A stretch of 32,082 bases of DNA, taken from IMG/VR virus record IMGVR_UViG_3300021963_000431, positions 1 to 32,082 of that record. One strand, written 5' to 3'. Shown here piece by piece: positions 10,016-31,164 of the stretch (positions within the stretch are counted from its first letter, which is position 1; every line of letters starts with the position of its first letter). The DNA comes from a virus. The position numbers were made by a program, and so were the translations under genes. The notes beneath the pieces are model-generated. The model was not told the DNA's origin. It did not search any database and saw only the letters and a list, made by a program, of their open reading frames with translations.

Positions 10016-10471
10016 ATGAATTGGTATGATCGAGTTTCGAAGGATATTTCAAATATTCCTGATGCCGTAGCGTATTATGAGGCTGAATTACTAGCAGCAA
10101 AAACAGATGCTCGCATAGCGGGAAACCTTGAAAAAGCCGCTGCAAATATGCCAGGTATTGTAGAAAATCGATTTAATCAACTTCAAGAGATCGAAGCAAT
10201 ATTAGAGTATCTTAATATTGAACTTCGTAGACTTCGTAGTCAACACTTTCGTAAGTATCTTGAAAACTATCAACGTCAGTTAAGCTCTAGAGATTGTGAA
10301 AAATTTGTAGAAGGCGAAGCTGACGTTGTAGATTTTGAAAAAATTATCAACGATTTCGCTCTGCTAAGAAATAAATGGCTAGGCATTATTAAAGCCTTAG
10401 ACATTAAACAATGGCAAATTTCTAATATTGTTAAACTTAGAACATCAGGATTAGAGGACGCTACTCTTTAA
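10016..10471 (+). CDS. uvsY: UvsY-like recombination mediator
   Basis: Encodes 151 residues; T4 UvsY has 137. UvsY helps UvsX displace gp32 from ssDNA. The protein is all-helical. Its middle (LNIELRRLRSQHFRKYLENY) corresponds to the basic KARLDYY part of T4 UvsY, and its end (LLRNKWLGIIKALDIKQWQISNIVKLR in part) follows the same spacing as the WGILLDFCSGALDAIKSRG helix. It starts one base after the acidic protein's stop with GAGGAT as ribosome site. The operon gp32-UvsX-UvsY supports the call. Sequence match is weak, so it rests partly on context. Confidence 0.7.
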   Translation: MNWYDRVSKDISNIPDAVAYYEAELLAAKTDARIAGNLEKAAANMPGIVENRFNQLQEIEAILEYLNIELRRLRSQHFRKYLENYQRQLSSRDCEKFVEGEADVVDFEKIINDFALLRNKWLGIIKALDIKQWQISNIVKLRTSGLEDATL

Positions 10472-11078
10472 TCCAATGCCATGTTGCCCACGACCATTGC
10501 GGTAGTGGGCTTTTGTTTGGAAATGCAGACATCATTCTATTCCAGCACTGTGTTTCTAATCTTCCGTATTTTCTTTTCAATTCAACAGCAAGATTGCTCT
10601 TAATTAGAAGTTGTCCGTTTGGATTTAAATTGTCCATGCAACATTGATATAATTCTTTCCAATCGTCAGACGACCATTCTTCATTAAGTTCGAATGTTGT
10701 TCGGATCATTATAATGCAATCCCAAGGACCCTTGGGAATATTCTTATCATAGTTAGGAAATAAACCGAATTCGGTCATATTCAATCCTGCATCTCTATGA
10801 AACGGTTCCAATGACTTGGATGTTCTTCCAAAATACGTTCCTAGATATTCGTGATTATGATATTTAGAGATTGATCCAAAATGTCCTAGTCCTGCACCGA
10901 TGTCTAAAATCTTTTGATTAGTTTTTTCTTTTAAGTTTAATAGGTCAAATAATTCTAATTTTTCTATAAGAAATTGATCTTCGTCGAGATATTTGATCCA
11001 TTCGGTCATGCCGAGAGTCTCAGCTAATTTTTTTTGCTGATCAATTCTACAGACAGTTTTTGCTAGATCTAATTCCAC
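10461..11078 (-). CDS. class I SAM-dependent methyltransferase
   Basis: Encodes about 205 residues. The SAM-binding motif is ILDIGAGLGHFG, with an acidic residue at the end of the next strand replaced by a Tyr-rich segment. A later strand reads DCIIMIRTTFE, and NPNGQLLIKS is the typical post-motif III turn. Two starts are possible. The GTG at 11078 is preceded by GGAG 5 bases upstream; the TTG at 11096 has no ribosome site and would lie upstream of the mRNA start predicted from the GGTAAATA motif, so the GTG is chosen. The gene converges with uvsY, overlapping it by 11 bases. Its substrate is unknown; neighbours point to sugars. Confidence 0.78.
   Translation of the reverse strand: MELDLAKTVCRIDQQKKLAETLGMTEWIKYLDEDQFLIEKLELFDLLNLKEKTNQKILDIGAGLGHFGSISKYHNHEYLGTYFGRTSKSLEPFHRDAGLNMTEFGLFPNYDKNIPKGPWDCIIMIRTTFELNEEWSSDDWKELYQCCMDNLNPNGQLLIKSNLAVELKRKYGRLETQCWNRMMSAFPNKSPLPQWSWATWHWIKE
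10486..10514 (+). terminator. terminator of the recombination operon
   Basis: GCCCAC-G-ACC and GGT-A-GTGGGC form a stem with one mismatch and an ATTGC loop, followed by TTTTG. It lies 15 bases past the uvsY stop and inside the 3' coding end of the convergent methyltransferase gene. Confidence 0.8.
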
Positions 11079-11096
11079 ACAGTCTCCAAGTTTCAA

Positions 11097-11104
11097 TATT
11101 TACC
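11097..11104 (-). promoter_or_regulatory. putative late promoter of the methyltransferase gene
   Basis: On the minus strand GGTAAATA lies so that T4 geometry puts the mRNA start near 11091, 13 bases before the GTG start and just before its GGAG site. Only six of eight bases fit the consensus. Confidence 0.4.
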
Positions 11105-11116
11105 ATTATCTGGGTA

Positions 11117-11124
11117 GATAAATA
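11117..11124 (+). promoter_or_regulatory. putative T4-type late promoter (GATAAATA)
   Basis: GATAAATA differs from TATAAATA at one base and lies exactly 5 bases before the ATG at 11130. No ribosome site is present. It drives the rightward glycan genes. Confidence 0.65.
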
Positions 11125-11129
11125 TTCAC

Positions 11130-11891
11130 ATGAACAAAATCGTATTAGTTACAGGTGGATTCGACCCACTACACTCAGGGCACATTGCCTATTTCAAAGC
11201 AGCTAAAGCACTAGGCGATATTTTAATTGTTGGAGTAAATTCAGATGCATGGTTAACTCGCAAGAAAGGTGCACCATTTATGCCTTACAAAGAACGTGCA
11301 AGTATTGTAAGGAATATCGTTGGCGTTGATTTTGTTATAGATTTTAACGACAACGACGGTAGTGCTAAAAATGCTATCCAGATGGTTCGACAAAGTTATC
11401 CTAGCGATAAAATTATTTTTGCGAATGGTGGCGATCGAACTGATAAAAATATTCCAGAAATGGATATCGACGATGACAATTTAGAATTTGTTTTTGGCGT
11501 TGGCGGCTTCGATAAAGCAAATTCTAGCTCGTGGATACTACAAGAATGGAAAGCACCAAAGACTGAACGTCCGTGGGGATATTATCGTATACTGCATGAA
11601 GTTCCAGGAATGAAAGTTAAAGAACTTACAGTCAATCCGGGTAAGAGTCTAAGTATGCAGCGTCACTATCATCGTGCAGAGTATTGGATTGTCAGCGAAG
11701 GACGAGCAGTGGTTAACAGCATGATGCCAGGCGGCTATTCGTTACCTTCAACTGAGTTAGCATTACACGAAGAATATAAAGTTCCAGTAAACGAATGGCA
11801 TCAGCTGACTAATCCGCATACTGAACCTGTAAAGATTGTAGAAATACAATACGGAGAACGATGCGAAGAAGAGGATATAGAAAGAAAATGA
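11130..11891 (+). CDS. cytidylyltransferase-like / type II PMI-like cupin fusion
   Basis: Encodes 253 residues in two domains. Residues 1-140 are a nucleotidyltransferase of the TagD/RfaE2 type: GGFDPLHSGH with the HxGH signature (H15, H18) and the NSSSW segment for the later substrate motif. These enzymes join CMP or AMP to a phosphorylated polyol or sugar. Residues 147-253 are a cupin like the C-terminal half of type II mannose-6-phosphate isomerase: ERPWGYYRIL, metal ligands in QRHYHRAEYW and WHQLTNP. One protein would therefore isomerise or bind a sugar and activate it. The next gene overlaps by ATGA. Confidence 0.88.
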   Translation: MNKIVLVTGGFDPLHSGHIAYFKAAKALGDILIVGVNSDAWLTRKKGAPFMPYKERASIVRNIVGVDFVIDFNDNDGSAKNAIQMVRQSYPSDKIIFANGGDRTDKNIPEMDIDDDNLEFVFGVGGFDKANSSSWILQEWKAPKTERPWGYYRILHEVPGMKVKELTVNPGKSLSMQRHYHRAEYWIVSEGRAVVNSMMPGGYSLPSTELALHEEYKVPVNEWHQLTNPHTEPVKIVEIQYGERCEEEDIERK

Positions 11892-12559
11892 AAGTATTTG
11901 TTGGTTACGATATCAGAGAAGATGTTGCGTTTCAAGTATGCGAATACAGCATAACAAAACATCAACCAGATGCAGATGTTATTCCTCTCAAGCAAAAAGA
12001 ATTAAGAGAAAGCGGTCTGTATACTAGAGCCGTTGACCCGTTAAGCTCTACTGAATTTACTTTTACTAGATTCCTAGTTCCTTACCTTTCTGACTATAAA
12101 GGATGGGCAGTATTTGTCGACTGCGATTTTGTATTTGTAGACGATGTTGCAAAATTATTTGAACAGGCCGATGATCGATATGCAGTAATGGTAGTGCAAC
12201 ATGATTACACTCCTAAAGAAAGCATTAAGATGGATGGCTGCAAACAGTTGCCTTATCCTAGAAAAAATTGGAGCTCTACCATATTGTGGAACTGCGGGCA
12301 TCCGTCAAATAAACAAATTACCCCGGACGTAGTTAATACTCAAACAGGACAATATCTACACAGATTCCAATGGCTTAAGGATGAGGAAATCGGAAACTTA
12401 AAACCTGAATGGAATTGGTTAGTAGGATGGTATCAAGAACCGCAAGACGGTTCTCCTAAAGCATTGCACTATACCGAAGGCGGTCCATGGTTTAAAGATT
12501 ATCGCAGATGCGACTATCATAAAGTGTGGAAAAAATATCTTAAAGAAATGTTAAAATGA
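11888..12559 (+). CDS. GT8-like glycosyltransferase
   Basis: Encodes 223 residues from the ATG at 11888, which overlaps the previous stop as ATGA; an upstream ATG at 11861 lies inside the cupin gene and is less likely. The fold is GT-A: start MKVFVGYDIRED, nucleotide-sugar DxD at D78-C79-D80 in VFVDCDFVF, and a late HYTEGGPWF that matches the HxxGxxKPW end-motif of GT8 enzymes. It transfers a hexose from a nucleotide donor to an unknown acceptor. It lies between the activating fusion enzyme and a paralogue series, so a shared glycan is likely. Confidence 0.82.
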   Translation: MKVFVGYDIREDVAFQVCEYSITKHQPDADVIPLKQKELRESGLYTRAVDPLSSTEFTFTRFLVPYLSDYKGWAVFVDCDFVFVDDVAKLFEQADDRYAVMVVQHDYTPKESIKMDGCKQLPYPRKNWSSTILWNCGHPSNKQITPDVVNTQTGQYLHRFQWLKDEEIGNLKPEWNWLVGWYQEPQDGSPKALHYTEGGPWFKDYRRCDYHKVWKKYLKEMLK

Positions 12560-13359
12560 GCAAATGGATATTCCTTAGTAAGGGAAAAGAAGACGATTAC
12601 ATAAATTTGTTCGCATCAGGCTGCGGCGAAAAACCAGTTGATCCTGCAACATTCGATCCAGAAGAAGGTAATGATCCTGTTGTATTAAGAGGAATTCTTA
12701 AAAAAAGAATAATTAAAAAATGTCTTAATATCGGCAGAACATTTTATTATGTAGATACAGGTTATTTTGGAAACGAAAGAACCTTAACTAATCCCAATGG
12801 ATGGAAGTATTGGCACAGGATAGTGAAAAACGATTTACAACATCACAATATCATTCAAAGACCCGACGATCGGTTTAAACATTTTAATAAAAAATTTAAT
12901 CCTTGGAAAAAGAGCGGAAGAAAAATATTAATAGCTAAACCAGACGAAAAGCCTATGAAATACTATGGGCTTGAATTAGATCAATGGGTTGAAGATACTA
13001 TAAATGAAATTAAAAAATATACTGATAGACCGATTGAAGTAAGAGACCGAGCTAAACAAAGAATTGATCGAGTGGTTCATAATACTTTACAAGAAGCATT
13101 AGATGATGATGTATTTGCTTTGGTTACATTCAATAGTGTAGCTGCGATTGAAAGTGTATTTCATGGTATACCTGCATTTACGCTTTCGCCAACACATGCC
13201 GCTAGTCCTGTAACATTGCAAGATCTGAGTAAAATAGAAACTCCTTATTATCCAGACAAAGACAAATTATATGCATGGGGGTGTCACCTTGCATACGGCC
13301 AATTTCATGTTAGCGAACTAAGAAATGGAAAAGCAAAAGAGATGTTAGAAAATGAATGA
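12556..13359 (+). CDS. KpsC/GT-B-like glycan enzyme, paralogue A
   Basis: Encodes 267 residues. It shares with four other genes here an order of motifs: RTFYYVDTGYFGN, WHRIVKNDLQHHN, a strand KILIAKP, then FALVTFNSVAAIESVFHGIPAF and LAYGQF. The NSVAAIESVFHGIP block is like the C-terminal donor-binding half of Kdo-transferases of the KpsC type. The usual R-x-HP signature is replaced by EVRDRAKQ, so activity may differ. It overlaps the GT8-like gene by ATGA and the next paralogue by 8 bases. Capsule or LPS sugar transfer is inferred. Confidence 0.65.
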   Translation: MSKWIFLSKGKEDDYINLFASGCGEKPVDPATFDPEEGNDPVVLRGILKKRIIKKCLNIGRTFYYVDTGYFGNERTLTNPNGWKYWHRIVKNDLQHHNIIQRPDDRFKHFNKKFNPWKKSGRKILIAKPDEKPMKYYGLELDQWVEDTINEIKKYTDRPIEVRDRAKQRIDRVVHNTLQEALDDDVFALVTFNSVAAIESVFHGIPAFTLSPTHAASPVTLQDLSKIETPYYPDKDKLYAWGCHLAYGQFHVSELRNGKAKEMLENE

Positions 13360-14149
13360 TGAATCAATAGAAAATTTTTTATCTATAGGATCTGGTAATG
13401 TTGTAACAGCAGACAGCGAAGATACATCTAAACCTTTAGTTTTAAGAGGTGTCATTAAAAAAGATCACATATATAAATGCATCGAAACTAATAGAGACTA
13501 TTACTATGTAGATACTGGATATCTTGGAAATTTTCCTAGCCCAGGAAATACTTCGGGTAAAAAGAAATGGCATAGAATTGTTAAGAATGGCTTACAGCAT
13601 GATCAAACCTTTGATGTCCCAGACGACCGCTGGAAAGATCTAGTTAAACAAGATCCGAGATTAAAGTGGACTGGTTGGAAAAATCATAATAAAAAAATAT
13701 TATTAGTAATGCCTAATCCTAAGGCCTGTAAATTTTACGATGTCGATTATGACAAGTGGGTTGAGGAAACTACTAATCAAATTAAAGAAAATATCGATCT
13801 TCCTATAGAAGTAAGAGTCAAAGGCAGCAGAAGCTATAGAAATAATGAATATTCTATATACGATGCATTTGATAGCGGAGTATATGCTACTGTGGCGTTT
13901 AATAGTATTGCAGCTCTTGAATCTGTTCTTTACGGAATTCCGGCCTTTGTATCTGTTCCATGCGCAGCAACACCGTTAGCTAGTTACGATTTAACACAGT
14001 TAAAAAATCCTTTTAGGCCTAGCGAAGAACAAATTTTAAAACATTGTCGATCTATAGCATACGGACAATTTACATTAGAGGAAATCTCCAGCGGAGTTGC
14101 TTGGAGAATTATTAACAGGTATACTTATGAAACTTCTATTAAACGATAA
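13352..14149 (+). CDS. KpsC/GT-B-like glycan enzyme, paralogue B
   Basis: Encodes 265 residues and is the nearest relative of paralogue A. It has DYYYVDTGYLGN, WHRIVKNGLQHD, KILLVMP, ATVAFNSIAALESVLYGIPAF and IAYGQF in the same order and spacing. As in A, the R-x-HP site is lost (EVRVKGSR). The first 40 residues are variable. The two genes probably arose by tandem duplication followed by long divergence. It overlaps both neighbours, so the series is translated as one unit. Confidence 0.65.
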   Translation: MNDESIENFLSIGSGNVVTADSEDTSKPLVLRGVIKKDHIYKCIETNRDYYYVDTGYLGNFPSPGNTSGKKKWHRIVKNGLQHDQTFDVPDDRWKDLVKQDPRLKWTGWKNHNKKILLVMPNPKACKFYDVDYDKWVEETTNQIKENIDLPIEVRVKGSRSYRNNEYSIYDAFDSGVYATVAFNSIAALESVLYGIPAFVSVPCAATPLASYDLTQLKNPFRPSEEQILKHCRSIAYGQFTLEEISSGVAWRIINRYTYETSIKR

Positions 14150-15215
14150 AGAGATATCCCATTTTCTAGTCAGTCAAATCGACCACCTTGGTGCTCTTAA
14201 ATTGTTATGGAAAAATGAAGAACACGCCGGTGAGGTTATCTCTTACGTTATCTTTGAAAAACAAAAACCTAAATATAATCTCGAGAAGATGCGTAAAAAA
14301 TTCAAAGATAAAATCAAAGGAGCGGTCGAAAGAGATCTTAAAAATTGGTGGGGCAATGCCAAGAATACGCTCGCCGAACGAAAACAAGTTTATTTCAAAT
14401 ACATCAATTCTAATCTAGATTACTTTATGAATAACCTTGGAGAAGATCGTGTATTCGAAATGTATAAGAACAGCTGGAAACAAAACTTTGTAAAAAGTGT
14501 TGGGTATCAGATCGATACAGATGCTGTGATGATCAGAAGAACGAAATTTAATAATCCTAAAGAAAATTGCTTAATTAGAAATACAGTAGGCAACGAGGGA
14601 TTATTGATTGAAAAAATCGACAACAGTTATCCATTCTGGTTCATAGATAGCGGTTATACTAATTTTGTCGAGCCTAACAAAAAATGGCATAGGGTAGTTC
14701 AAAATCATCTGCACTACGGAAAATATTTTGATGCTCCTCCCGATAGACTCGGTAACTTTAAAATATTTCCGAGACCGTGGAGAGAGGGTGGAGACAAAAT
14801 CTTAGTCATTGAGCCAGGACAATTTGCTGCCGGAATATTTCATGTAAACATAAAAGAATGGAAATATCAGGTCGAAGAGGAATTAAGAAAGTATACCGAT
14901 AAAAAAATCGTATTCAGAGAAAAGGCTCCTAAAAAACAAAGAGCACCGTTGTATAAACATCTGCTCGACGAAGATTATCATTGTGTTATAAGCATTAACT
15001 CTAATGCTGCTACAGAGGCAGTGTGGGCCGGAATTCCTATAATTACATTAGATCGACATATCACGAATCCAATCGCTAAGAATAGTCTGTCAGACATTAA
15101 TGATTTAGCAAGACCAAATATAGCTAACTGGTTATGTATGTTAAGTTATAGTCAATTTTCTTACGACGAGCTGATAGACGGAACTGCTATAAAACTTATA
15201 CAGAAATATGCATAA
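14127..15215 (+). CDS. KpsC/GT-B-like glycan enzyme with N-terminal extension, paralogue C
   Basis: Encodes 362 residues from the ATG at 14127 with AGGT upstream; a TTG at 14097 is in frame but lies deep in paralogue B. Residues 1-150 form a separate Lys-rich helical extension not seen in the others. The rest repeats the family order: PFWFIDSGY, WHRVVQNHLHYG, KILVIEP, CVISINSNAATEAVWAGIPIIT and LSYSQF. R-x-HP is replaced by VFREKAPK. The extension may bind a partner or membrane surface. Function is inferred from the family. Confidence 0.63.
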   Translation: MKLLLNDKEISHFLVSQIDHLGALKLLWKNEEHAGEVISYVIFEKQKPKYNLEKMRKKFKDKIKGAVERDLKNWWGNAKNTLAERKQVYFKYINSNLDYFMNNLGEDRVFEMYKNSWKQNFVKSVGYQIDTDAVMIRRTKFNNPKENCLIRNTVGNEGLLIEKIDNSYPFWFIDSGYTNFVEPNKKWHRVVQNHLHYGKYFDAPPDRLGNFKIFPRPWREGGDKILVIEPGQFAAGIFHVNIKEWKYQVEEELRKYTDKKIVFREKAPKKQRAPLYKHLLDEDYHCVISINSNAATEAVWAGIPIITLDRHITNPIAKNSLSDINDLARPNIANWLCMLSYSQFSYDELIDGTAIKLIQKYA

Positions 15216-16134
15216 ATTTACCGCTGTCGCATATTATGGCGGCATTCCTCCGAATAACAGTAATCCTGAAAAACCTCGAATCCTTGATAATTTTTGTCAA
15301 GGTGTAATTGCTTCAGGTGATACAGCTATTCAGCATAAAGCTATGACTGTTTTACCTTGTGATGTAGCACTTATACAAGGATTTGTTCACGAGCATGGAA
15401 AAAATGCACCTCATCTATTGTTAAGAAGACAAGCGATTGATTTACAAAAAAGAAATAACAAACGTAGTTTAATTGTTGATAGTAATTTATTTTTATATGC
15501 TGATCCAGGCAATACAAAAACTTATTTGAGGTATAGTTTTGACGGTGTTTTTCCAACTACTGGTTTTTATTTCGACAAAGATATAGATCCTGCTCGTTGG
15601 CAAAAAATTAGTCAAAGATTAAACTTAAATTTAAAACCTTGGAGAACACAAGGTGAAAATATTCTTATCTGTTTACAAAGAAACGGTGGTTGGTCAATGC
15701 AAGGTGTAAGCACTATTGAATGGCTCAATAAAACTATAGAACAAATTAGAACATATTCTAAAAAACGTCATATAGTTGTTAGAGGTCACCCAGGAGATAA
15801 AAAAACTCTCCAATCTTTAATGATTAATCATAAAAATGTATCAGTTAGTAGAAATGACAGACTAGTTGACGACCTAAGGAACTCATGGGCCACCGTAGTC
15901 TACAACAGCAGCCCTAGTGTAGCCAGTATCATCGAAGGAGTTCCGGCATTTTTAACAGATCCCCATCCAGAAAACAGTCAATCTTATGCAGTATCGAATA
16001 TTGGACTGGATCGTCTTGAAGATCCATTGCTACCTGATAGACAATCGTGGATAGAAAAACTATCTATGTGTCATTGGTCGTTCGATGAATTAAAATCTGG
16101 TGAAGCTTGGAGATTTTTTAGGCAATATATTTAA
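15208..16134 (+). CDS. KpsC/GT-B-like glycan enzyme, paralogue D
   Basis: Encodes 308 residues with an additional N-terminal half (VALIQGFVHEHG, LIVDSNLF) that resembles the start of paralogue E. The C-terminal part keeps HIVVRGHPGD, the R-x-HP type site of GT-B and Kdo-transferase-like proteins, then ATVVYNSSPSVASIIEGVPAF and a DRQSWIEKLSMCHWS end. It is thus closer to an active-enzyme pattern than A to C. It overlaps paralogue C by 8 bases and meets the leftward transferase at a shared TTTAAA holding both stops. Confidence 0.66.
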   Translation: MHKFTAVAYYGGIPPNNSNPEKPRILDNFCQGVIASGDTAIQHKAMTVLPCDVALIQGFVHEHGKNAPHLLLRRQAIDLQKRNNKRSLIVDSNLFLYADPGNTKTYLRYSFDGVFPTTGFYFDKDIDPARWQKISQRLNLNLKPWRTQGENILICLQRNGGWSMQGVSTIEWLNKTIEQIRTYSKKRHIVVRGHPGDKKTLQSLMINHKNVSVSRNDRLVDDLRNSWATVVYNSSPSVASIIEGVPAFLTDPHPENSQSYAVSNIGLDRLEDPLLPDRQSWIEKLSMCHWSFDELKSGEAWRFFRQYI

Positions 16135-16943
16135 ATTTGTTGCCAGTATGCTTCTTTTCTTTTAACTAAAAGATCAGTTCTTTTACTTTTTCCTAAATCT
16201 TTTCGACCGCCCTTAAGGTGATCAAGATACGCTCCCCAAAAACTGTTGATTAAGGGGTGACCTTCTCCTGTAACTAGACCTTCACTCCAATTCCATTGCT
16301 TGAGATGAGGAAATTTATGTCTAACAGCATCAAATACAAAACTATCATGCCATTCGTCTAGTAAAAATATGCCCGATTCGGCTTCATCATACATTCTTTG
16401 AAATTCTTTTAAGAAATTTTTAATTTCCGGTGAGTGTAACTTCATAGAATACAAGCCGCATTCTGAAAATTTGTTTTTTCTACCAAGAAAACACAAATCT
16501 TTGTCTAAAGGAACGTAAGATTTTAGTGTTTCTAAATTTATAGGACTATGACAGATAGTATCAGCGTCCATCCAGATTAAAATATCTGCATCAGTGGTTC
16601 TTGCACAGTCAAAGATGGCATAAACTTTATGTGCGAATCGTATGGCGTGCCATTTAAAACCTTTTCCGGCATCTTTTCTTTTAGATCTTACAGGATCTGA
16701 CGAAACATCGCCGTTGGCCTTTGGAACATTTCTCCACTTATCTTTAAATGCCATCAACTCTTTTACCTCTTCTAACCTTTTGAGGGTGATTTGATTATGA
16801 TCTGGCACTTGTGGATTGCATTCTTCTGGATAAAGATGTAACGTAACATCCTTTGGCCAATTTTTACAAAATGTATTGATCATCTGTTGACCGTATTTTT
16901 TAAGACCCGGCTCATTAAAGGTCGTTACCACTGCTATTTTCAT
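16131..16943 (-). CDS. GT-A glycosyltransferase (DxD)
   Basis: Encodes 270 residues from the ATG at 16943, which overlaps the stop of the upstream leftward gene (ATGA) and has GGAAG 8 bases before it; an earlier in-frame ATG at 17006 adds 21 residues inside that gene. It starts MKIAVVTTFN and has DILIWMDADT with D126-A127-D128 as metal and nucleotide site. FLLDEWHDSFVFDAV and GHPLINSFWG follow. The acceptor is unknown. It forms a two-gene leftward unit with a small Rossmann-like protein, inserted between paralogues D and E. Confidence 0.78.
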   Translation of the reverse strand: MKIAVVTTFNEPGLKKYGQQMINTFCKNWPKDVTLHLYPEECNPQVPDHNQITLKRLEEVKELMAFKDKWRNVPKANGDVSSDPVRSKRKDAGKGFKWHAIRFAHKVYAIFDCARTTDADILIWMDADTICHSPINLETLKSYVPLDKDLCFLGRKNKFSECGLYSMKLHSPEIKNFLKEFQRMYDEAESGIFLLDEWHDSFVFDAVRHKFPHLKQWNWSEGLVTGEGHPLINSFWGAYLDHLKGGRKDLGKSKRTDLLVKRKEAYWQQI

Positions 16944-17347
16944 TGCATCATCTTCCAACCGTGAAAAAATCCCATCTGTTCTACTGGCCTGTAATGAAAA
17001 TTCCATAAAAGTTTGGTTTTTTCTCTATCAACTAACTCGTTACCTTCAATTAGAATGAAAGGACGTGATCTCGACCATAAAGAAACACATTGATTTAAAT
17101 TATGTAACTGTAAAAGGTCTACCAATATTGCAGATGGATTACCTATCTGACCAATTTCTTGAAAATCTTGCCTATAGATTAAATTTCTTGTTCTAATTTC
17201 AGGCGGAACAGAGTTAACAACAAAAACTGTATCAAATATTTCTGTAAGTTCTTTAATCATGCCAAAGCCAGTCCCCAGGACCAACGCCGATTCTGGTTCT
17301 TTGATAAATTTGGTAATTCTTTTTGCAAATTTACTCATCGTAGACAT
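16940..17347 (-). CDS. small Rossmann-like protein, possible methyltransferase relative
   Basis: Encodes 135 residues; the second Met (17338) is an alternative start. A GxGxG-like turn ALVLGTGFGMIKEL is followed by a strand DTVFVVN, as in SAM-binding folds, but the later methyltransferase motifs are missing or too altered to recognise. A late-promoter TATAAATA sits 12 bases upstream on this strand. It is coupled to the DxD glycosyltransferase by ATGA. It may be a reduced methyltransferase or a binding subunit. Confidence 0.6.
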   Translation of the reverse strand: MSTMSKFAKRITKFIKEPESALVLGTGFGMIKELTEIFDTVFVVNSVPPEIRTRNLIYRQDFQEIGQIGNPSAILVDLLQLHNLNQCVSLWSRSRPFILIEGNELVDREKTKLLWNFHYRPVEQMGFFHGWKMMQ

Positions 17348-17353
17348 TAAATA
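17346..17353 (+). promoter_or_regulatory. putative late promoter (ATTAAATA), rightward
   Basis: ATTAAATA lies 21 bases before the ATG of paralogue E. The predicted leader contains AAGG 4 bases before the ATG. It overlaps the start of the leftward gene and faces its promoter. Confidence 0.5.
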
Positions 17354-17359
17354 CTCAGT

Positions 17360-17367
17360 TATTTATA
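17360..17367 (-). promoter_or_regulatory. T4-type late promoter (TATAAATA), leftward
   Basis: A perfect TATAAATA on the minus strand, 12 bases before the ATG at 17347. Predicted start near 17354 leaves a leader of about 7 bases. Confidence 0.75.
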
Positions 17368-17374
17368 AGGTCTT

Positions 17375-18211
17375 ATGAGATTCAAATTATATCGAGAATA
17401 CGGTGCTTTAAATAGTCCGTCAGTGTTCAATGCCGTTGAATTAGGTTTGAGAAATGCTGGTCATGAAATCGTCACTTCTGGTGAAGATATTGCAGTCATA
17501 TGGTCAGTTTTATGGCAGGGTCGCATGGCAAACAATCAAAAAATTTATCAAGAAGCACGACGTCAAGCAAAGCCGATACTAATAATAGAAGTAGGTAACT
17601 TGAAAAGAAATCATACCTGGAGAATAAGTTTAGACCATATCAATGGTCTAGGCAAATTTGCTAATTCTGGCGAGTTAGACCCAGATAGACCAAAAAAACT
17701 AGGGGTTAAATTAGAACCGATCAAAGAAATAAGAAGACCAGAAATCCTAATAGCCACACAACATCAGGCTAGTCTTCAGTGGCAGGGGATGCCTAATATG
17801 GCGACATGGACTAAAGACATTGTTTATAAATTACAAGAGTATACTAGGCGAAAAATCATAATAAGACCACATCCAAGATCCCCATTTAGAATAGATTTGC
17901 CTGGGACTGTTATGGAAAGTCCTCAAAAAATTCTTGGGTCATACGATGACTTCAATATCAATTACAACTATCATTGTGTAGTAAACTATAACAGCGGACC
18001 AGCTGTTCAAGCTGCTATTCACGGTGTTCCTATCATCTGTGACAAATCCAGTTTGGCCGGTGATTTAGGCGAAAAAATAGAAAATATTGAAAACGCCAAA
18101 CTCCCAGACAGAAGCGATTGGTTTCTTAAATTGTGCCACACCGAATGGACGGTAGACGAAATTCAACAAGGCATTCCGTTTTCTCGCCTAATACCTAAAA
18201 TCTCTGGTTGA
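17375..18211 (+). CDS. KpsC/GT-B-like glycan enzyme, paralogue E
   Basis: Encodes 278 residues. The first half (IAVIWSVLWQGRM, PILIIEVGN) aligns with the start of paralogue D, and the second half has KIIIRPHPRS, the canonical R-x-HP site, then HCVVNYNSGPAVQAAIHGVPII and a DRSDWFLKLCHTEWT end. A middle DLPGTVMESP segment is unlike its relatives. Of the five it looks most like an ordinary GT-B or Kdo-transferase-type enzyme. It has its own late promoter and ends just before the sigma70 promoter of the UvsW module. Confidence 0.68.
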   Translation: MRFKLYREYGALNSPSVFNAVELGLRNAGHEIVTSGEDIAVIWSVLWQGRMANNQKIYQEARRQAKPILIIEVGNLKRNHTWRISLDHINGLGKFANSGELDPDRPKKLGVKLEPIKEIRRPEILIATQHQASLQWQGMPNMATWTKDIVYKLQEYTRRKIIIRPHPRSPFRIDLPGTVMESPQKILGSYDDFNINYNYHCVVNYNSGPAVQAAIHGVPIICDKSSLAGDLGEKIENIENAKLPDRSDWFLKLCHTEWTVDEIQQGIPFSRLIPKISG

Positions 18212-21912: not shown

Positions 21913-22145
21913 TGCCATTAGACAGTCTGATGTGGAACAATGAAGATTTCAAACGTCGGTGTATAGGATGGAAATTAAAATTTAGTATTTGGCCTCGGAG
22001 ATGTTTTTACACAGGTAAATATCTTTGGTTAAAAAGAGCGTATCTCGGAATAGGTATGATATGTGGACCAGGAGAGCCTGTATTTGAATATCGATGGTGT
22101 GAAAGACGAGAATACTTATTTTTAAAAATTAAAGGAATAATATGA
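21912..22145 (+). CDS. small aromatic- and Arg-rich protein
   Basis: Encodes 77 residues, basic, with many Trp, Tyr, Phe and Arg and five Cys (CIG, RRCF, MICG, RWCE). It starts one base into the previous gene's stop (TAATG) and ends by ATGA in the cupin gene. Cys spacing is too wide for a clear zinc finger. No family is recognised. The compact overlaps at both ends argue that it is a real coupled gene. Confidence 0.62.
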   Translation: MPLDSLMWNNEDFKRRCIGWKLKFSIWPRRCFYTGKYLWLKRAYLGIGMICGPGEPVFEYRWCERREYLFLKIKGII

Positions 22146-22486
22146 AAGCTGGAAAAGTATGGGGACAAACAGAATTGCTTGAAGCAAACGGTGTATTAGA
22201 GTTTCATAGAATTGAAGCCAAAGCCGGTGGGGTTTGTTCTAAACACAAACATAAATTTAAGTGGAACGGATTCTTCGTAGAATCTGGAAAAATGATTATT
22301 CGTGTGTGGAAAAATAATTACGATCTTGTTGACGAAACAATTTTAGAAGCAGGTCAGTATACAAAAGTCGCTCCAGGCGAATACCATCAGTTCGAAGCCA
22401 TAGAAGATACTGTAGCTTTTGAATTATATTGGGCAGAATTTGATCACGAAGATATCGAACGTGAAACTGTAGGATTTTCTAAGTAA
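22142..22486 (+). CDS. cupin-domain protein
   Basis: Encodes 114 residues, a single cupin barrel. Metal ligands appear in SKHKHKFKW and in EYHQFEA, with the glycine-rich turn LEAGQYTKVAPGE between them. The end HEDIERETVG resembles the EEDIERK end of the cupin in the fusion protein at 11130. Such cupins include type II mannose-6-phosphate isomerases and sugar epimerases. A sugar-phosphate isomerisation role is inferred. It closes the rightward unit and converges with the GDPD-like gene. Confidence 0.82.
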   Translation: MKAGKVWGQTELLEANGVLEFHRIEAKAGGVCSKHKHKFKWNGFFVESGKMIIRVWKNNYDLVDETILEAGQYTKVAPGEYHQFEAIEDTVAFELYWAEFDHEDIERETVGFSK

Positions 22487-22933
22487 TTAATCTTGTTCTA
22501 AGATTTCTTTGACTTTGTATGGGTAGTCTGTGCAAATTCCAAAGACCATCGACGAAGGAAAGTTTCCGTCGGCATTCATCCAACAAGCGACACTCTTACG
22601 CCCTAGAGAGTGTCCTTCATAGGTCCAGATAAATCCTTTACTAGTAATAGTTCGATGATCCTCTTGATGCCAAAAACAATGAATTCCTTGTTCTAACATA
22701 AATTCTAACGCAGCAAGATTTTTTGCATGACACCACAAATGTTTATTCTTTAAAAATTGCATAGTAACTTGATGCTGTCCGTAGTCGTGTCCTAACAAAA
22801 TTTTATTATCGATAACCCAGACATCGATTTCAACATCAAATCCTTGTTTTATAGCTTCTAAAATATATTCGGGATTGTTTTCAGATCCTGGATTTGGCCC
22901 GCTTATATTTCCTCTGTGACTAATTATTATCAT
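22487..22933 (-). CDS. compact glycerophosphodiester phosphodiesterase-like protein
   Basis: Encodes 148 residues; typical GDPD enzymes have about 240. Catalytic positions are kept: H6-R7 in SHRG, E18, E35 and D37 in DVEIDVW, and H49-D50 in LLGHD. The end has VFGICTDYP, matching the TDxP close of the barrel. A middle part of the TIM barrel is shortened. These enzymes cleave glycerophosphodiesters to glycerol-3-phosphate and an alcohol. It is the last gene of the leftward glycan operon (ATGA overlap), so it may trim a glycerophosphate or related diester. Confidence 0.78.
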   Translation of the reverse strand: MIIISHRGNISGPNPGSENNPEYILEAIKQGFDVEIDVWVIDNKILLGHDYGQHQVTMQFLKNKHLWCHAKNLAALEFMLEQGIHCFWHQEDHRTITSKGFIWTYEGHSLGRKSVACWMNADGNFPSSMVFGICTDYPYKVKEILEQD

Positions 22934-23709
22934 AATATAACATATCCCTTTCCTGACAAATCCTCAATATCTCCTTCGAAATACGGGTAAAAAATAAAAT
23001 TAGGAATAGCACTACAACGTGGAGGATTTTTAAACAGACTTTTCTCCCATCGTTGAGAATCGATACCGGGCCATTTAAGACTAAAAATATTTCCACTATG
23101 TTGCATATACCTAGGTGTGGATCTTTCATCTGATGCTCGTTTTACCACATCCTCTGTAGGGTTCCAAACTCTTCTATGATGGTGATCATTTATAGATACT
23201 TTATCTCTATGATATAACCATGCTCTTAATAAAAAGTCACCTTCGTAATACCCCAAGGTGCACATCCTTTCATCAAACAATCCTATTTTCTTAATAGCAT
23301 TAGGTAGCACACTTATAAAACAATCTCCCCAACTACATTGATATAAATCGTATTGTTTGTGAATTTTTCTTAAAGTTTTATACCATCCTGGCTCCCAGAT
23401 AGCATCATCTTGACACAATATTATTTGATTACACAGTGGATCGTTGAGATTTTTAAATCCAAGGACTAATGCTTGATTCCAGTCTCTTGCAGGGGTTCCG
23501 CAACCCCAGTCTGCGCGAAGTGTTTGATTATGGACAATAACTCTATTTTTAAAATCTTCCGGAACTTCAAAAATCGTTGAATGATTATTAATAATATTAA
23601 CTTCAATTTCGTCAAACGGTGCATTGCTACTAAAAAAAGAAGTTAAATTATTTTTTAAATCTTCCGGAGCCTTGTATGTTAAAATAAAAATTTTTATGTT
23701 CTTTTCCAT
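22930..23709 (-). CDS. GT2-like glycosyltransferase
   Basis: Encodes 259 residues with GT-A features: a first strand IKIFILTYKAPEDL, a second EVNIINNHS, then IILCQDDAIWEPGW with the acidic DDA metal site near residue 103, and a later YYEGDFLLRAW acidic segment that could hold the base. No membrane segment is seen. It overlaps the upstream methyltransferase gene by 16 bases and the GDPD-like gene by ATGA. Donor and acceptor are unknown. Confidence 0.82.
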   Translation of the reverse strand: MEKNIKIFILTYKAPEDLKNNLTSFFSSNAPFDEIEVNIINNHSTIFEVPEDFKNRVIVHNQTLRADWGCGTPARDWNQALVLGFKNLNDPLCNQIILCQDDAIWEPGWYKTLRKIHKQYDLYQCSWGDCFISVLPNAIKKIGLFDERMCTLGYYEGDFLLRAWLYHRDKVSINDHHHRRVWNPTEDVVKRASDERSTPRYMQHSGNIFSLKWPGIDSQRWEKSLFKNPPRCSAIPNFIFYPYFEGDIEDLSGKGYVIL

Positions 23710-24353
23710 GCAAAGCCTATACCGTAGTCATCTTTAATATCGCTGCAGGCATTAGTCATAACATTCCATTTATCTTGATTTAAATTATTAACGAAAAAAT
23801 ACGGGCCTGGATGATATGCTGTGTCGTGAAATCCGACAACTCCTGTATCACTTAATAGCTTGGTATATTCCCACTCGACTAATACTTGATTTATGCTATG
23901 CCAGCCGTCGATGAATAAGAAATCAATCCTGTCAACGCCTAGTTCATTTAACTTATTCATAACAACATCTATATGTTCGCTTCTTGTTTGAATAGTGTGT
24001 ATGTTTAAATCTATATTATTAAGATATGTTTTATCTTCTATATCAATACCTAAATAATACGTGTCGTCTCTTTTATTATTAAGAAAAATTGATGTGCTGG
24101 TATTTTTAAATCGCTTACTTCTGCTAACTCCAATTTCAACGATGCACCTACAATTTTCTTTTATGGATAAAAATCTAGGTAACAAACTCATTTGATTATG
24201 GACACTGAAATCTTCTAAATCTCTTGATCTAGGAGGAAGGATTGGCAAGCCTGTATCTTCAAAACAAAATCGTCGATCAACAAACGGCCAATCTAGATCA
24301 TCTCTATAATCATTGAATCTGATATCTTTAACTAGATCTTCTTCCCATCTCAT
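23694..24353 (-). CDS. class I methyltransferase (Methyltransf_24/CmcI-like)
   Basis: Encodes 219 residues from the ATG at 24353, which overlaps the RuBisCO-like gene stop (ATGA) and has GGGGA 8 bases upstream; an ATG 15 bases earlier is an alternative. Motif I is CIVEIGVSRSKRF, with acidic YLGIDIED after the next strand. The signature FLFIDGWHSINQVLVEWEY followed by GVVGFHDTAYHPG is typical of methyltransferases of sugars and antibiotics (CmcI, TylF-like) in which D and H bind metal. It may methylate the product of the RuBisCO-like step or the finished sugar. Confidence 0.83.
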   Translation of the reverse strand: MRWEEDLVKDIRFNDYRDDLDWPFVDRRFCFEDTGLPILPPRSRDLEDFSVHNQMSLLPRFLSIKENCRCIVEIGVSRSKRFKNTSTSIFLNNKRDDTYYLGIDIEDKTYLNNIDLNIHTIQTRSEHIDVVMNKLNELGVDRIDFLFIDGWHSINQVLVEWEYTKLLSDTGVVGFHDTAYHPGPYFFVNNLNQDKWNVMTNACSDIKDDYGIGFAWKRT

Positions 24354-25543
24354 TGAATTAGTCCCCATTTTTTAATTGCAACATCATACTCGTCACCGCC
24401 GGTGTGATCAATTGCTTGTCTCATTGCTGTAGCACCGGCTATGGTTCCACCTGGGTGTCCATGCACTGCTCCGCCGGCATTGGCCAAGTAGTCAATACCA
24501 GCTAGCTCAGTCACTTTGTTTACCAATCCCGGATGCATTCCGCAACTTAATGCAGGAACAGTATTGCCTGCCACTAGGATTTCTATACACTTCTTAATCT
24601 CTTCTGGATCGTCGTTACTGTAGCCGCCAACCATTCCTGTTTGAATTGTATCAGCTCCCATCAATGTAGCTAATTGACACATAACTGGCCAACTAATACT
24701 AAATCTATGATTTTTATCTGTTGTAACTTTTGCACCACTGCTTTGATAATGTAAGAATAATGGTAAATCTAATTTTCTAATACTGTTATATGCACCATAC
24801 CCACTAAACACGTTGATATGAACACCGTTACCACCTAACTCGTGGACTCGTTTAACTCTATCAACCAGGATATGTGGATCACAGTTAATGGTATGACAAA
24901 ATACAATCTTACGACTTTGTTTAGCAAGATAGTTAGCAATGATATCTACACGACGATCTAAAGGAGCGCAAGCCGGATTGACCATAATTTCATCTTCTTT
25001 GATAAAGTCAACACCACCATCGACCATCTGCTTGACCATTTCTAATAGAACTTCGGGAGTGATACCAATCTTAGGCTTTACAATACTTCCAAACAATGGT
25101 TTATTGTATTGACCGGTTAGTTTTCGCATACCGGTTAAACCAAACTTAGGACCTAAAAAATGTTTAGTTACAGTTTCTGGCAGTTCTAATTTTACCAGTC
25201 TACATTTAGTGACAATATCAATATCAACATGCCCGCCCATTAATTGACATAACATGTGGCTAATGCCATCACTTTCCCAATCAGTGTTAATTACAGGAAA
25301 TGCAATAGAAACTAACCCGTCGGTTTGTTTTTCTAACATTCCTTCTTCACCTACAATTATACAACTATGATTTTCAAAAAGGTCATCAGTTTCCCATTCA
25401 TTTCTAACGTTAGGATTTCCGACACTTTGACCAATTGCTAAATTCCATGCTGCATCTTTTAGGTTAGCAGAACTAGACATTTCGTAAGTGGCAATATAAT
25501 AACGGTTCAAATCTAATTCACTTCTATCCTTAAAAAACTTCAT
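24350..25543 (-). CDS. RuBisCO-like protein (form IV type)
   Basis: Encodes 397 residues of the RuBisCO large-chain fold. GSIVKPKIGI (K156, K158) matches the KPKLGL site; FIKEDE gives K182, D184, E185, the carbamate-lysine and metal ligands, with the correct spacing of 26. VHINVFSGYGAYN and HGHPGG match later barrel loops, and S333 matches S379. The carboxylase-specific residues are gone: Q267 and S268 replace H294 and R295, and Y308 replaces the loop-6 K334. So it is not a CO2 fixer. RuBisCO-like proteins enolise or isomerise sugar phosphates. The start has AAAGGAG upstream, inside the cupin gene. It sits in a glycan operon. Confidence 0.93.
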   Translation of the reverse strand: MKFFKDRSELDLNRYYIATYEMSSSANLKDAAWNLAIGQSVGNPNVRNEWETDDLFENHSCIIVGEEGMLEKQTDGLVSIAFPVINTDWESDGISHMLCQLMGGHVDIDIVTKCRLVKLELPETVTKHFLGPKFGLTGMRKLTGQYNKPLFGSIVKPKIGITPEVLLEMVKQMVDGGVDFIKEDEIMVNPACAPLDRRVDIIANYLAKQSRKIVFCHTINCDPHILVDRVKRVHELGGNGVHINVFSGYGAYNSIRKLDLPLFLHYQSSGAKVTTDKNHRFSISWPVMCQLATLMGADTIQTGMVGGYSNDDPEEIKKCIEILVAGNTVPALSCGMHPGLVNKVTELAGIDYLANAGGAVHGHPGGTIAGATAMRQAIDHTGGDEYDVAIKKWGLIQ

Positions 25544-25853
25544 ACTTGTCTCCTTTAATACTAGGCACCTTTACACATAATACCTGGCAGTCTTCATGAA
25601 AAATAGGATCTGCAACTTCATTAGGTTCTAAAACAAAAATTGTTCCTGGAACAATGCTTTGACCACAAATAGTCATAGATCCACTTATTAATAAATTATA
25701 TTCTGTCGCTACAGCATGATAATGCTTAGGCCAGACTTCACCTTTTTTATGAGTCAGTAATCCGACTTCAAAATTTTCAGTTTTGAGAACAGTAGGTTCA
25801 AAATTTCCTATAAACCATCCTCGCCACATCTCATCAATTTTTCTTGTTTTCAT
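25530..25853 (-). CDS. small cupin protein
   Basis: Encodes 107 residues, one cupin barrel. KHYHAVATEYNLL carries the first metal motif and SGSMTICGQSIVPGTIFVLEPNE the glycine turn; the later His is in DPIFHED. It is smaller than the other two cupins of the window and belongs to a different branch. It overlaps the nucleotidyltransferase gene by 20 bases and the RuBisCO-like gene by 14, the closest coupling in the operon. A direct functional link with the RuBisCO-like enzyme, such as handling the same sugar phosphate, is inferred. Confidence 0.82.
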   Translation of the reverse strand: MKTRKIDEMWRGWFIGNFEPTVLKTENFEVGLLTHKKGEVWPKHYHAVATEYNLLISGSMTICGQSIVPGTIFVLEPNEVADPIFHEDCQVLCVKVPSIKGDKYEVF

Positions 25854-26553
25854 ATTCTAAATATTTTTTTAAATCATCTGGCACACCAACTGGATGATGC
25901 TGTGAGTTTGGTATGTGATAAATTCCTACCTTTAATCCTTGCCTGATCATATGGTTGTATGTTGGGCCTATATAAAATTCGCCGTTAGGTGCTCGATCTT
26001 GTAGATCAATCATTTTCTCTGCACTGCTAACAAAAAATTTGCCTTTTTTCCAATAATGTATTCCATTAAGGCTTACATTACTTATAACTTCTTTTTCTCG
26101 TATTTCTATAACAAAACCTTTTTCATCTAATCGAGCATAACTGTTTTTATCTGTGTCTGTATGATAAGTTACTACAGCCCCATCATATAATCTTACATTA
26201 TGTAAGAAATTTTCACTGTTCCATTCCATTATTTGATCACAGTTAGCTATAACTAATTCATCATCTGTGTCTATAAACTCTTTGAATAACAATGCACTAA
26301 CCGCAGGACCTTCGGTTATATAATCAATTTCTATAAATTTACTAGTTGGCTTGAGAGCTAGAATCGTTTCTTTTACTAACTCTGTAAATTGATTCTTTGC
26401 AATTACAAACAAATAATTGCCTTCTAAATTTAAACTAGTAATCGCCCTAGATATCATGGGCCTACCATTAACTTCGATTAATGGTTTAGGAACTGGATAG
26501 GTATGACTAGGAAATCTTGAGCCCAGCCCCGCCATTGGTATAAGTATATTCAT
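25834..26553 (-). CDS. sugar-1-phosphate nucleotidylyltransferase
   Basis: Encodes 239 residues from the ATG at 26553, since AAAGGATGAG lies at the right distance; an ATG at 26562 sits in that ribosome site. The signature MAGLGSRFPSHTYPVPKPLIEV is the NTP-binding loop with the PKP lysine, and VIANCDQIMEW carries the metal Asp. The family makes NDP-sugars from NTP and sugar-1-phosphate (GlmU, RfbA, GalU relatives). No acyltransferase domain follows. It leads the leftward operon and is read from a perfect late promoter 20 bases upstream. Its product is likely the activated form of the sugar handled downstream. Confidence 0.9.
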   Translation of the reverse strand: MNILIPMAGLGSRFPSHTYPVPKPLIEVNGRPMISRAITSLNLEGNYLFVIAKNQFTELVKETILALKPTSKFIEIDYITEGPAVSALLFKEFIDTDDELVIANCDQIMEWNSENFLHNVRLYDGAVVTYHTDTDKNSYARLDEKGFVIEIREKEVISNVSLNGIHYWKKGKFFVSSAEKMIDLQDRAPNGEFYIGPTYNHMIRQGLKVGIYHIPNSQHHPVGVPDDLKKYLEYENKKN

Positions 26554-26573
26554 ATAGCTCATCCTTTATGAGA

Positions 26574-26581
26574 TATTTATA
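26574..26581 (-). promoter_or_regulatory. T4-type late promoter (TATAAATA), leftward
   Basis: A perfect TATAAATA on the minus strand gives a predicted start near 26568 and a 15-base leader holding AAAGGATGAG before the ATG at 26553. It would drive the six-gene RuBisCO-like operon. Confidence 0.82.
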
Positions 26582-26602: not shown

Positions 26603-27283
26603 ATGAAATCATTTATAATCCGTTTAAAAGACAATCAGATATCAGAAACACATGCCAATGACTGTGTGATTCGTGCAGCAGAACAGGGCGTTACTGTAAA
26701 TTATTTTGATGCTATCAACGGAAAAGAATATGAAGCGCATCTAAGGCAACTAAGAATAAAACCTAGATATAAATTTAAAAAAGGTAGAGCAGGAGTTTTC
26801 GGTTGTTTCCTTAGCCATTATTATTTGTGGAACAACTGTGTTGCTGATAATATTCCTTATTTGATTTTAGAACACGACGGATATTTCATTAGACCTCTTC
26901 CTGATAACATTTTAGATCAATTTGCTGATGTTTTAAAATTAGATAATTTAGATCCTTACTCTAAACTATATGAGCAATTAATAGAAGAAGAAAAAGAAAA
27001 CGAAATAAAAATATCCAAATATCATAACAGCCAGGCAAAATTTTTAGAAAAAAATCAAACTGGAAATTATATGAGAGGAGCCTACGGATATATTATTAAA
27101 CCACACGCTGCTAAAAAAATCGTAGACTGGATCAGTCAAAACGGATTCGTTCCAGCAGATCAACAGATTGGTGATGCATTGGTTGACATTTCTGTTACAA
27201 CCCCTACAATAGTAAGACTACACCCAGCATATCACAACAGAATAGGTGAGCTGTCGTTAACTGGGAATCCGGAGTTATTATAA
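26603..27283 (+). CDS. GT25-like glycosyltransferase
   Basis: Encodes 226 residues. The GT25 pattern is clear: first strand KSFIIRLKDN, GVFGCFLSHYYLWNNC and PYLILEHDGYF with the acidic donor site, then RGAYGYIIKPHAAKK and PADQQIGDALVD. These enzymes add hexoses to LPS cores or related acceptors. A 25-residue acidic stretch (LYEQLIEEEKENE) is inserted in the middle. It is transcribed away from the RuBisCO-like operon but from the same short promoter region, so the two arms may be expressed together. It shares its stop with the next start. Confidence 0.85.
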   Translation: MKSFIIRLKDNQISETHANDCVIRAAEQGVTVNYFDAINGKEYEAHLRQLRIKPRYKFKKGRAGVFGCFLSHYYLWNNCVADNIPYLILEHDGYFIRPLPDNILDQFADVLKLDNLDPYSKLYEQLIEEEKENEIKISKYHNSQAKFLEKNQTGNYMRGAYGYIIKPHAAKKIVDWISQNGFVPADQQIGDALVDISVTTPTIVRLHPAYHNRIGELSLTGNPELL

Positions 27284-30037: not shown

Positions 30038-30045
30038 TATAAATA
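30038..30045 (+). promoter_or_regulatory. T4-type late promoter (TATAAATA)
   Basis: A perfect TATAAATA, 6 bases before the ATG at 30052, with no ribosome site between. It overlaps no coding frame and drives a single structural gene. Confidence 0.82.
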
Positions 30046-30051
30046 GTCATT

Positions 30052-31164
30052 ATGCAAGCAATTTCAGTTTATTTATATCCAAACAAGGTCGACGTCTTTA
30101 CTAATGCCTTGGCCGCTTGGCAAACAGAGAGGTATCGCAGAGTGTATAACCGTAATCTAAAAATATATCGTAGTGTTGATAATCGCATCGACATCCAAGT
30201 TCGTAATTCTGATCAGAAATCCGCAGACACTAGCGGATCGACTTTGGTATTTAATCTCATCAATAGAGATACCAGAGATTTAGTGGTTTCTAAGGACTGC
30301 GAAGTTGTAAGTTACAGCACCGGAAAGTGGTATGTAACTTTATCAGAAACTGAATTGCATGATATCAATAACGGATTCTATAACTATTCATTAACTCAAG
30401 AATCAAGAAACACTATCGATTCTACTAACGGTAGCCATAGTGTTTCTGCTAGGACACCGATGTATATCGACGGACAATATGAAGTTATAGGAACTTTAGA
30501 AATTGTAGGTGATGCCTATGGTGATGTTTCTAGATCTTTAGAGATAACAGAATTCCATTATATAAATCCAGCAACTACCGGATATCAAGATCCGTCATAC
30601 TACATCAGTAGTATTATAGATACCAACAGAGGTTTAGCATCTGCTCAATCATTACATACATTCCAGTTTTATCATGATACTAGTTTTAGTGGAAAGATCA
30701 CGATAGAAGGTAGCCTAGATAAAACTTCTAATCCTAAAAATTGGGTGATTATTCCAAACAGTGCAGTAAGTGGCGGAGCAAATCAGTTTATTACATCTGG
30801 GTCAACTACAACCTATAGGAACGTTGTTGGAAAATACAACTGGTTCAGAATCAAAGTAGGTGCCACATTTAACGGTTCTGCAAAATTTACCATTGCACAG
30901 ACATTTGATGGTCCTTATACTGTCAGTGTATATGATGGCGGTGCTAGTTACACTGTCGGCGATGTGTTAATCATTACCGGAGATAAATTGGGCGGTTATT
31001 CTGGTGTAAATGATTTAACGATCACAGTGGCATCGGTAAATTATAATGGTGCTATTATGTCAGTTACTCATTCTGGAACATCGGCGCCAAACGATAGAAG
31101 TTATGTATTAGGTGCAACTGGAATTCCGGCTACAGGAACCGTTGACAAGGTGTTATACAGATAG
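30052..31164 (+). CDS. late virion structural protein, beta-rich
   Basis: Encodes 370 residues, rich in Ser, Thr, Tyr, Gly and Asn, with alternating strands throughout and no Lys-rich or catalytic part. Residues 1-110 resemble N-terminal domains of baseplate-upper or fibre proteins (VDNRIDIQVRNSD, STLVFNLINR). The middle carries SGKITIEGSLDK and FNGSAKFTIAQT, immunoglobulin-like strand pairs, and the end has a YTVGDVLIITGD repeat-like turn. It is late-expressed from a perfect promoter. A baseplate or fibre part is inferred; the exact name cannot be given. Confidence 0.75.
   Translation: MQAISVYLYPNKVDVFTNALAAWQTERYRRVYNRNLKIYRSVDNRIDIQVRNSDQKSADTSGSTLVFNLINRDTRDLVVSKDCEVVSYSTGKWYVTLSETELHDINNGFYNYSLTQESRNTIDSTNGSHSVSARTPMYIDGQYEVIGTLEIVGDAYGDVSRSLEITEFHYINPATTGYQDPSYYISSIIDTNRGLASAQSLHTFQFYHDTSFSGKITIEGSLDKTSNPKNWVIIPNSAVSGGANQFITSGSTTTYRNVVGKYNWFRIKVGATFNGSAKFTIAQTFDGPYTVSVYDGGASYTVGDVLIITGDKLGGYSGVNDLTITVASVNYNGAIMSVTHSGTSAPNDRSYVLGATGIPATGTVDKVLYR

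Follow-up and report, generated by a model that had tools for sequence, protein, structure and literature searches.

A RuBisCO-like protein encoded with a sugar nucleotidyltransferase in a probable nucleotide-sugar cassette of bacterial viruses

What does a RuBisCO-like protein (RLP) do in a viral operon that opens with a sugar nucleotidyltransferase (NT) and a cupin? The question is raised by IMG/VR virus record IMGVR_UViG_3300021963_000431, the whole 32,082 bases of which were analysed and are called the window here. The window encodes a T4-type terminase, a single-strand binding protein (SSB) and UvsX, and the carrier of the operon is a virus infecting bacteria. Six open reading frames (ORFs) run along the minus strand from 26562 to 22487, and neighbours overlap head to tail by 4–20 nt. 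An earlier note on this DNA had described six overlapping minus-strand genes, and this layout was borne out; the end it gave, 26553, corresponds to the second ATG in the NT gene. The operon and its promoter motif are as follows.

26574..26581, minus strand: late-promoter motif TATAAATA, a perfect T4-type late-promoter consensus, 12 nt 5' of the first NT ATG and 21 nt 5' of the second
25834..26562, minus strand: predicted sugar-1-phosphate nucleotidyltransferase (NT; PF12804), start probably at the second ATG, 26553
25530..25853, minus strand: small cupin of 107 residues, core gene (weak cupin matches; phrog_24762)
24350..25543, minus strand: RLP of 397 residues, core gene (PF00016, E=1.2e-35; AF2 model; clade; active-site residues)
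23694..24368, minus strand: class-I-type methyltransferase (MT), accessory gene (Methyltransf_24, E=1.2e-4, below cut-off)
22930..23709, minus strand: GT2-like transferase, accessory and lineage-specific (PF00535, E=0.005, below cut-off)
22487..22933, minus strand: GDPD-like minimal phosphodiesterase of 148 residues, core gene (phrog_34507, 1.7e-27; residue pattern; model)

We favour, with somewhat more confidence than doubt, the reading that this operon is a late-expressed cassette for a nucleotide-activated sugar, in which the RLP would enolise or isomerise a sugar phosphate for the NT.

The match of the window RLP to PF00016 lies over the cut-off, and its AF2 model (pLDDT 91.4) superposed on RuBisCO and RLP structures with Z of about 38–44 (on 2oem, Z 44.2 and rmsd 2.1 over 368 residues), indicating that the RuBisCO large-chain fold is present. 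The scores against every NCBIfam model were far below cut-off. In a tree built without L086, L094, L096 and L268, 38 viral and cellular RLPs formed one group (support 100/99) apart from 12 references, which comprised form I/III RuBisCO, MtnW and OiaX in a set without Deep-Ykr and IV-GOS sequences.

In RuBisCO, the carbamate, the metal and K175 serve enolisation, and K334, E60 and N123 serve CO2 addition (spinach numbering is used throughout). The RLP clade retains K175, K177, K201, D203, E204, S379, G381 and G403, the last three being unread in the cut sequence L079. Where readable, the clade has G, G and Y in place of E60, N123 and K334 (position 334 is unread in one cut sequence), T65-W66 is N-P and H294 is Q, and the clade signature reads N65-P66, G123, Q294, Y334 and C380. 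Because E60, N123 and K334 are missing from the clade, the residue pattern argues strongly against a carboxylase role, and the retention of the enolisation residues together with the loss of those for CO2 addition predicts an enolase or isomerase. On these residues, the clade is best described as form IV RLP in the broad sense, that is, as a RuBisCO homologue without the essential carboxylation residues.

The phosphate-binding positions vary within the clade. Residues 295 and 327 (268 and 301 in the window RLP) bind the C5 phosphate in RuBisCO. Many members of the clade have K/H there, the window's subclade has S/Q, and R occurs at 295 only in L075 among the aligned members. In the window, the RuBisCO bisphosphate ligands T65, W66, R295 and H327 are thus N, P, S and Q. 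The 295/327 switch suggests substrate differences within the RLP family, and no clean rule was seen between the residue states at these positions and cassette make-up. In L048 (8001-9167), the RLP is broken into two ORFs and its neighbours are shortened too, suggesting decay or assembly errors.

A strict scan found RLP relatives on 55 viral contigs, and an alignment scan on 297. Sampled viral RLP loci were clustered at 90% identity, yielding 58 loci, and neighbours were counted within 4 kb on the same strand as the RLP. The NT was present in 55 of the 58 clusters, the cupin in 44, the GDPD-like gene in 41, the MT in 21 and the GT2 in 5; the gene directly 5' of the RLP was the cupin in 39/58 and the NT in 12/58. 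By the test that the earlier note set, its idea would have fallen had the genes not been found together elsewhere, but they were: NT-cupin-RLP, with or without GDPD, does recur across many divergent viruses, and some cellular loci of glycan type have it too. The order of all six genes is limited to close relatives, namely L001-L003 and three cut contigs (L051, L053 and L055). Because of this limitation and of the low MT and GT2 counts, the unit is a four-gene core (NT, cupin, RLP and GDPD-like) with accessory MT and GT2 genes, and the six genes are not one unit as had been suggested. A self-contained route of sugar activation is nevertheless likely, because NT-cupin-RLP recurs and forms an operon by itself in several viruses (L004, L008 and L041, where it is bounded by opposite-strand genes). 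No RLP was found among 50,697 phage records of INPHARED at the tblastn threshold used, and BFVD gave no full-length RLP match (best TM by query length, 0.40).

The cassettes that lack an RLP place a further constraint on its role. Among 80 viral cupin loci, the RLP-less ones mostly read NT-cupin-X-GDPD, in which X is a HAD protein of the PF03332 phosphomannomutase (PMM) family (49–68 bits against a gathering cut-off of 22.4). X resembles solved phosphomannomutases, and its HAD DxD motif is invariant (D8/D10). When the cupin loci were grouped into 57 clusters, 47 carried an RLP, 7 a PMM-family protein, none both and 3 neither; the hypergeometric probability of finding no overlap is 4.5e-7 if the clusters are independent. 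Moreover, the PMM-family protein was found in 0/128 RLP loci (a set in which many entries repeat a contig in overlapping form), and a scan that started from the PMM-family protein recovered 10 loci, all 10 without an RLP. Because the PMM-family protein takes the RLP slot, the RLP is suggested to act before, not after, the NT. The idea in the earlier note that gene order mirrors reaction order, which would put the RLP after the NT, does not agree with this swap.

Other variants exchange different genes around the same NT. In cyanophage Bellamy, an RpiB-type sugar-phosphate isomerase is fused to the NT homologue, whose neighbours are a homologous cupin, a PfkB-like protein and a gene annotated as a phosphatase. 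The fusion protein, Bellamy gp206 (L081:7992-9149), combines a nucleotidyltransferase with an RpiB/LacAB domain (PF02502, 3.9e-32) and is annotated only as 'phosphatase'. In L043, the NT carries an N-terminal HAD-like part ahead of cupin-RLP, and the loci homologous to it, L167, L173 and L174, match the HAD domain of S-CAM9. What these variants have in common is that sugar phosphates are interconverted to supply one type of NT.

The partner proteins were placed by profile matches of differing strength. The NT reached the gathering cut-off of PF12804 (NTP_transf_3; 28.2 bits against 27), and its profile matched 4evw (1.6e-35) and then mannose-1-phosphate guanylyltransferases (1.9e-09); the family alignment favoured the second ATG as its start. 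The cupin, MT and GT2 had Pfam matches only below cut-off. The cupin profile gave a weak match to a 113-residue cupin deposited as mannose-6-phosphate isomerase. The window's GDPD-like protein had no Pfam match and so did not reach the gathering score of Pfam GDPD. Its family has invariant H6-R7, E18-N19, E35/D37, H49-D50 and K71 (an HRG/EN/ExD/HD/K pattern across 27 aligned sequences), its profile matched the GDPD 7e0v (1.5e-4) over the first third only, and the top Foldseek matches of its model (pLDDT 95) were solved GDPDs, weak at E of about 1e-3, the viral protein being much shorter. As the protein has only 148 residues, 'GDPD-like' is the right strength of label.

The linkage of the RLP to the NT extends to cells. 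A close-peptide scan of GTDB genomes for the RLP returned nothing, and an alignment scan returned 23 loci, from SAR11 single cells and metagenome-assembled genomes (MAGs), three Legionella species, Elusimicrobia, DPANN archaea, Bacteroidota and others. The NT directly adjoins the RLP in at least 17 of the 23, among them loci of SAR11, Legionella, Elusimicrobia and a nanoarchaeal MAG. In Legionella, the RLP-NT pair stands on its own with a LicD phosphotransferase gene diverging from it; this arrangement is syntenic in L. nautarum, L. drozanskii and L. maceachernii (L076-L078). The flanks of other loci hold GT2, WavE, GT25 and epimerase genes. Presence of the RLP is sporadic (4/22 genomes in the search of the genus Legionella, 2/297 in the SAR11 order and 1/369 in the class of Legionella), a pattern that variable loci for surface glycans would be expected to show. 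One contig labelled as a Crocinitomicaceae MAG (L057), 3.3 kb long with NT-cupin-RLP-GDPD, falls inside the viral part of the tree and may be a contig of viral origin that was binned into a MAG.

Late expression had been claimed from a perfect late promoter, and the perfect TATAAATA in front of the NT is indeed there. TATAAATA occurs 4 times in the window against 4.46 expected by chance, so the motif is not enriched overall and its signal is positional only: all 4 copies lie 7–36 nt 5' of a same-strand gene start, a zone that covers about 3% of strand-positions. The remaining copies are these.

17360-17367, 30038-30045 and 30070-30077: TATAAATA, each copy just 5' of a gene start on its own strand

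In addition, the operon's copy is kept in three relatives (L001-L003), and AATAAATA stands at the equivalent site in L004, L005, L008, L018 and L041. In marine T4-like phages, NATAAATA serves as a late promoter. Because the copies of TATAAATA sit at gene starts and the one at the operon is conserved in relatives, late expression of the operon is likely. A scan for sigma-70 promoters and terminators gave a result at chance level, and no tRNAs were found in the window.

Taken with the slot swap, these data suggest how the cassette may work. The core of NT, cupin, RLP and GDPD-like protein would prepare a sugar phosphate and activate it as a nucleoside-diphosphate sugar (NDP-X). The RLP would be a metal- and carbamate-dependent sugar-phosphate enolase or isomerase, performing the first half-reaction of RuBisCO minus CO2 addition and feeding the NT, and would fill the slot held by a PMM-family enzyme in RLP-less cassettes. 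The cupin may isomerise, because of its weak likeness to the small cupin deposited as mannose-6-phosphate isomerase. The lineage-specific transferases and the MT could then attach or decorate the NDP-X sugar on a glycan, either of the virion or of the infected cell; decoration of a surface with an activated sugar is the most likely destination of the cassette. A more specific version, which we hold tentatively and at somewhat less than an even chance, is that the RLP is a RuBisCO-fold nucleotide-sugar enzyme producing an unusual keto-sugar mono- or bisphosphate, from which the NT makes NDP-X, with X then transferred to viral or host glycans, perhaps as a phosphodiester. Such a phosphodiester linkage, which would fit LicD and the GDPD-like protein, is speculation. 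The sugar pathway proposed in the earlier note stands in its broad lines, but the branched or methylated sugar, the trimming role of the GDPD-like protein and the virion or envelope target named there are guesses.

Several points weigh against this proposal. Slot sharing between RLP and PMM-family protein is no proof of equal function, as phosphomutase and enolase chemistries differ, and the RLP reaction might come before or after the cupin step. In the 12/58 clusters with the NT directly before the RLP, no cupin stands between them, and the cupin is either not strictly needed or replaced. Furthermore, the clusters share ancestry, so that the counts are not independent events, and the roles of RLP, NT and GDPD-like protein are predicted ones.

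One counter-reading is modular coincidence: an ordinary glycan island in which RLP and PMM-family protein share a slot through gene shuffling and the RLP precursor is unrelated to the NT substrate. The glycan regions of the RLP viruses are highly variable, and MT, GT and HAD genes come and go in them, as this reading would have it. However, the NT linkage in 55/58 viral clusters and the pairs in Legionella, Elusimicrobia and the nanoarchaeal MAG are too constant for shuffling, and RLP and PMM-family protein never occur together; we consider the coincidence unlikely. An OiaX-like decarboxylase or transcarboxylase is less probable still. OiaX is a 3-oxo-isoapionate-4-phosphate decarboxylase, and an RLP of this kind would yield a sugar phosphate that is branched or has a shortened chain. 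The OiaX model gives one of the better NCBIfam scores of the RLP (146.8 bits), and the best plasmid matches are OiaX-type genes at 28–30% identity, but the score is far under the 700-bit cut-off, the clade is separate, and OiaX-type rows keep H294, R295 and K334 where the RLP clade has Q, K or S, and Y.

Under methionine or sulfur salvage, the RLP would act either on DK-MTP-1-P as an enolase (MtnW) or on methylthioribulose-1-P as an isomerase, and the cupin would be a methylsulfurylase as in R. rubrum. That organism does pair an RLP isomerase with a cupin (PMC4958253), and MtnW structures give the best superposition on the RLP model. The MtnW catalytic lysine, at the N123 position, is nevertheless absent, its place being taken by G104 in the window by alignment and by G clade-wide (MtnW rows show a gap at the N123 column of the clade alignment); the MtnW models scored 171.7 bits against a cut-off of 409 and 141.9 against 513.6, no methylsulfurylase-named structure was among the cupin profile matches, and the partners are NT and GDPD instead. 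This very improbable reading was rejected on residues and gene context, as was, at a still lower probability that we put near zero, that of a true RuBisCO serving as a carbon-fixation auxiliary gene. The latter could appeal to the RuBisCO fold, to the retained K175/K177/K201/D203/E204 and to published viral rbcL calls taken as carbon fixation (PMC8506154), but the aligned members have other residues in place of E60, T65, W66, N123, H294, R295 and K334, R at 295 in L075 excepted. The nucleotide-sugar cassette is thus the reading that we retain.

Further glycan-type genes surround the operon. A WbuC-like cupin (22142-22486, plus strand), whose stop abuts the GDPD-like stop, and a GT25 glycosyltransferase (26603-27283, plus strand), whose start lies 40 nt from the NT start, flank it on the two sides. 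Positions 10461-18211 form a second glycan block, with an HldE/RfaE-type nucleotidyltransferase bearing a cupin-like C-terminal part (11130-11891) and, by eye, several paralogous capsule-type transferase lookalikes (at 12556, 13352, 14097, 15208 and 17375).

Compared with known systems, the viral RLPs share the fold, K175 and the metal-carbamate triad with form IV RLPs (MtnW/YkrW, Deep-Ykr, OiaX and the B. fungorum RLP), some of which are enolases or isomerases on sugar phosphates (PMC4958253); the R. rubrum RLP (Deep-Ykr, MTRu-1-P isomerase) is a sugar-phosphate isomerase of this kind. In contrast to the sampled form IV RLPs, the viral clade is separate, at about 22–30% identity, with its own signature and with linkage to NT, cupin and GDPD. 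The RLP-less cassette, with its PF03332 protein, NT and cupin, is like the eukaryotic-type phosphomannomutase route to NDP-mannose (isomerase, PMM and guanylyltransferase), whereas the window has the RLP in place of the PMM-family protein. Cyanophages S-SM2, Bellamy and S-CAM9 carry homologous NT, GDPD and, in Bellamy, cupin in glycan gene clusters, with RpiB, PfkB-like, HAD or phosphoheptose isomerase genes instead of the RLP. The GOS survey reported 65 marine RuBisCO homologues clustering with no known form, there without gene context or function (PMC1821046), and these may include the viral RLP clade. In our partial coverage of the literature, no report linking an RLP to a nucleotidyltransferase or polysaccharide cassette in phages was found.

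Viral genes have been called carbon-fixation genes (rbcL; PMC8506154) or 'RbcL-like' (PMC12607003). Viral 'carbon-fixation genes' of the RLP type are probably mislabelled, and E60, N123 and K334 should be checked before a viral rbcL is read as carbon fixation. RLPs are a known kind of protein, and the path from them to a new function in the RuBisCO superfamily is credible: the clade gains a strongly linked gene context, the RLP-for-PMM swap narrows its possible chemistry, and its function can be tested with four small proteins. If true, the nucleotide-sugar role would add a new biochemical function to the RuBisCO superfamily, one that is enriched in viruses.

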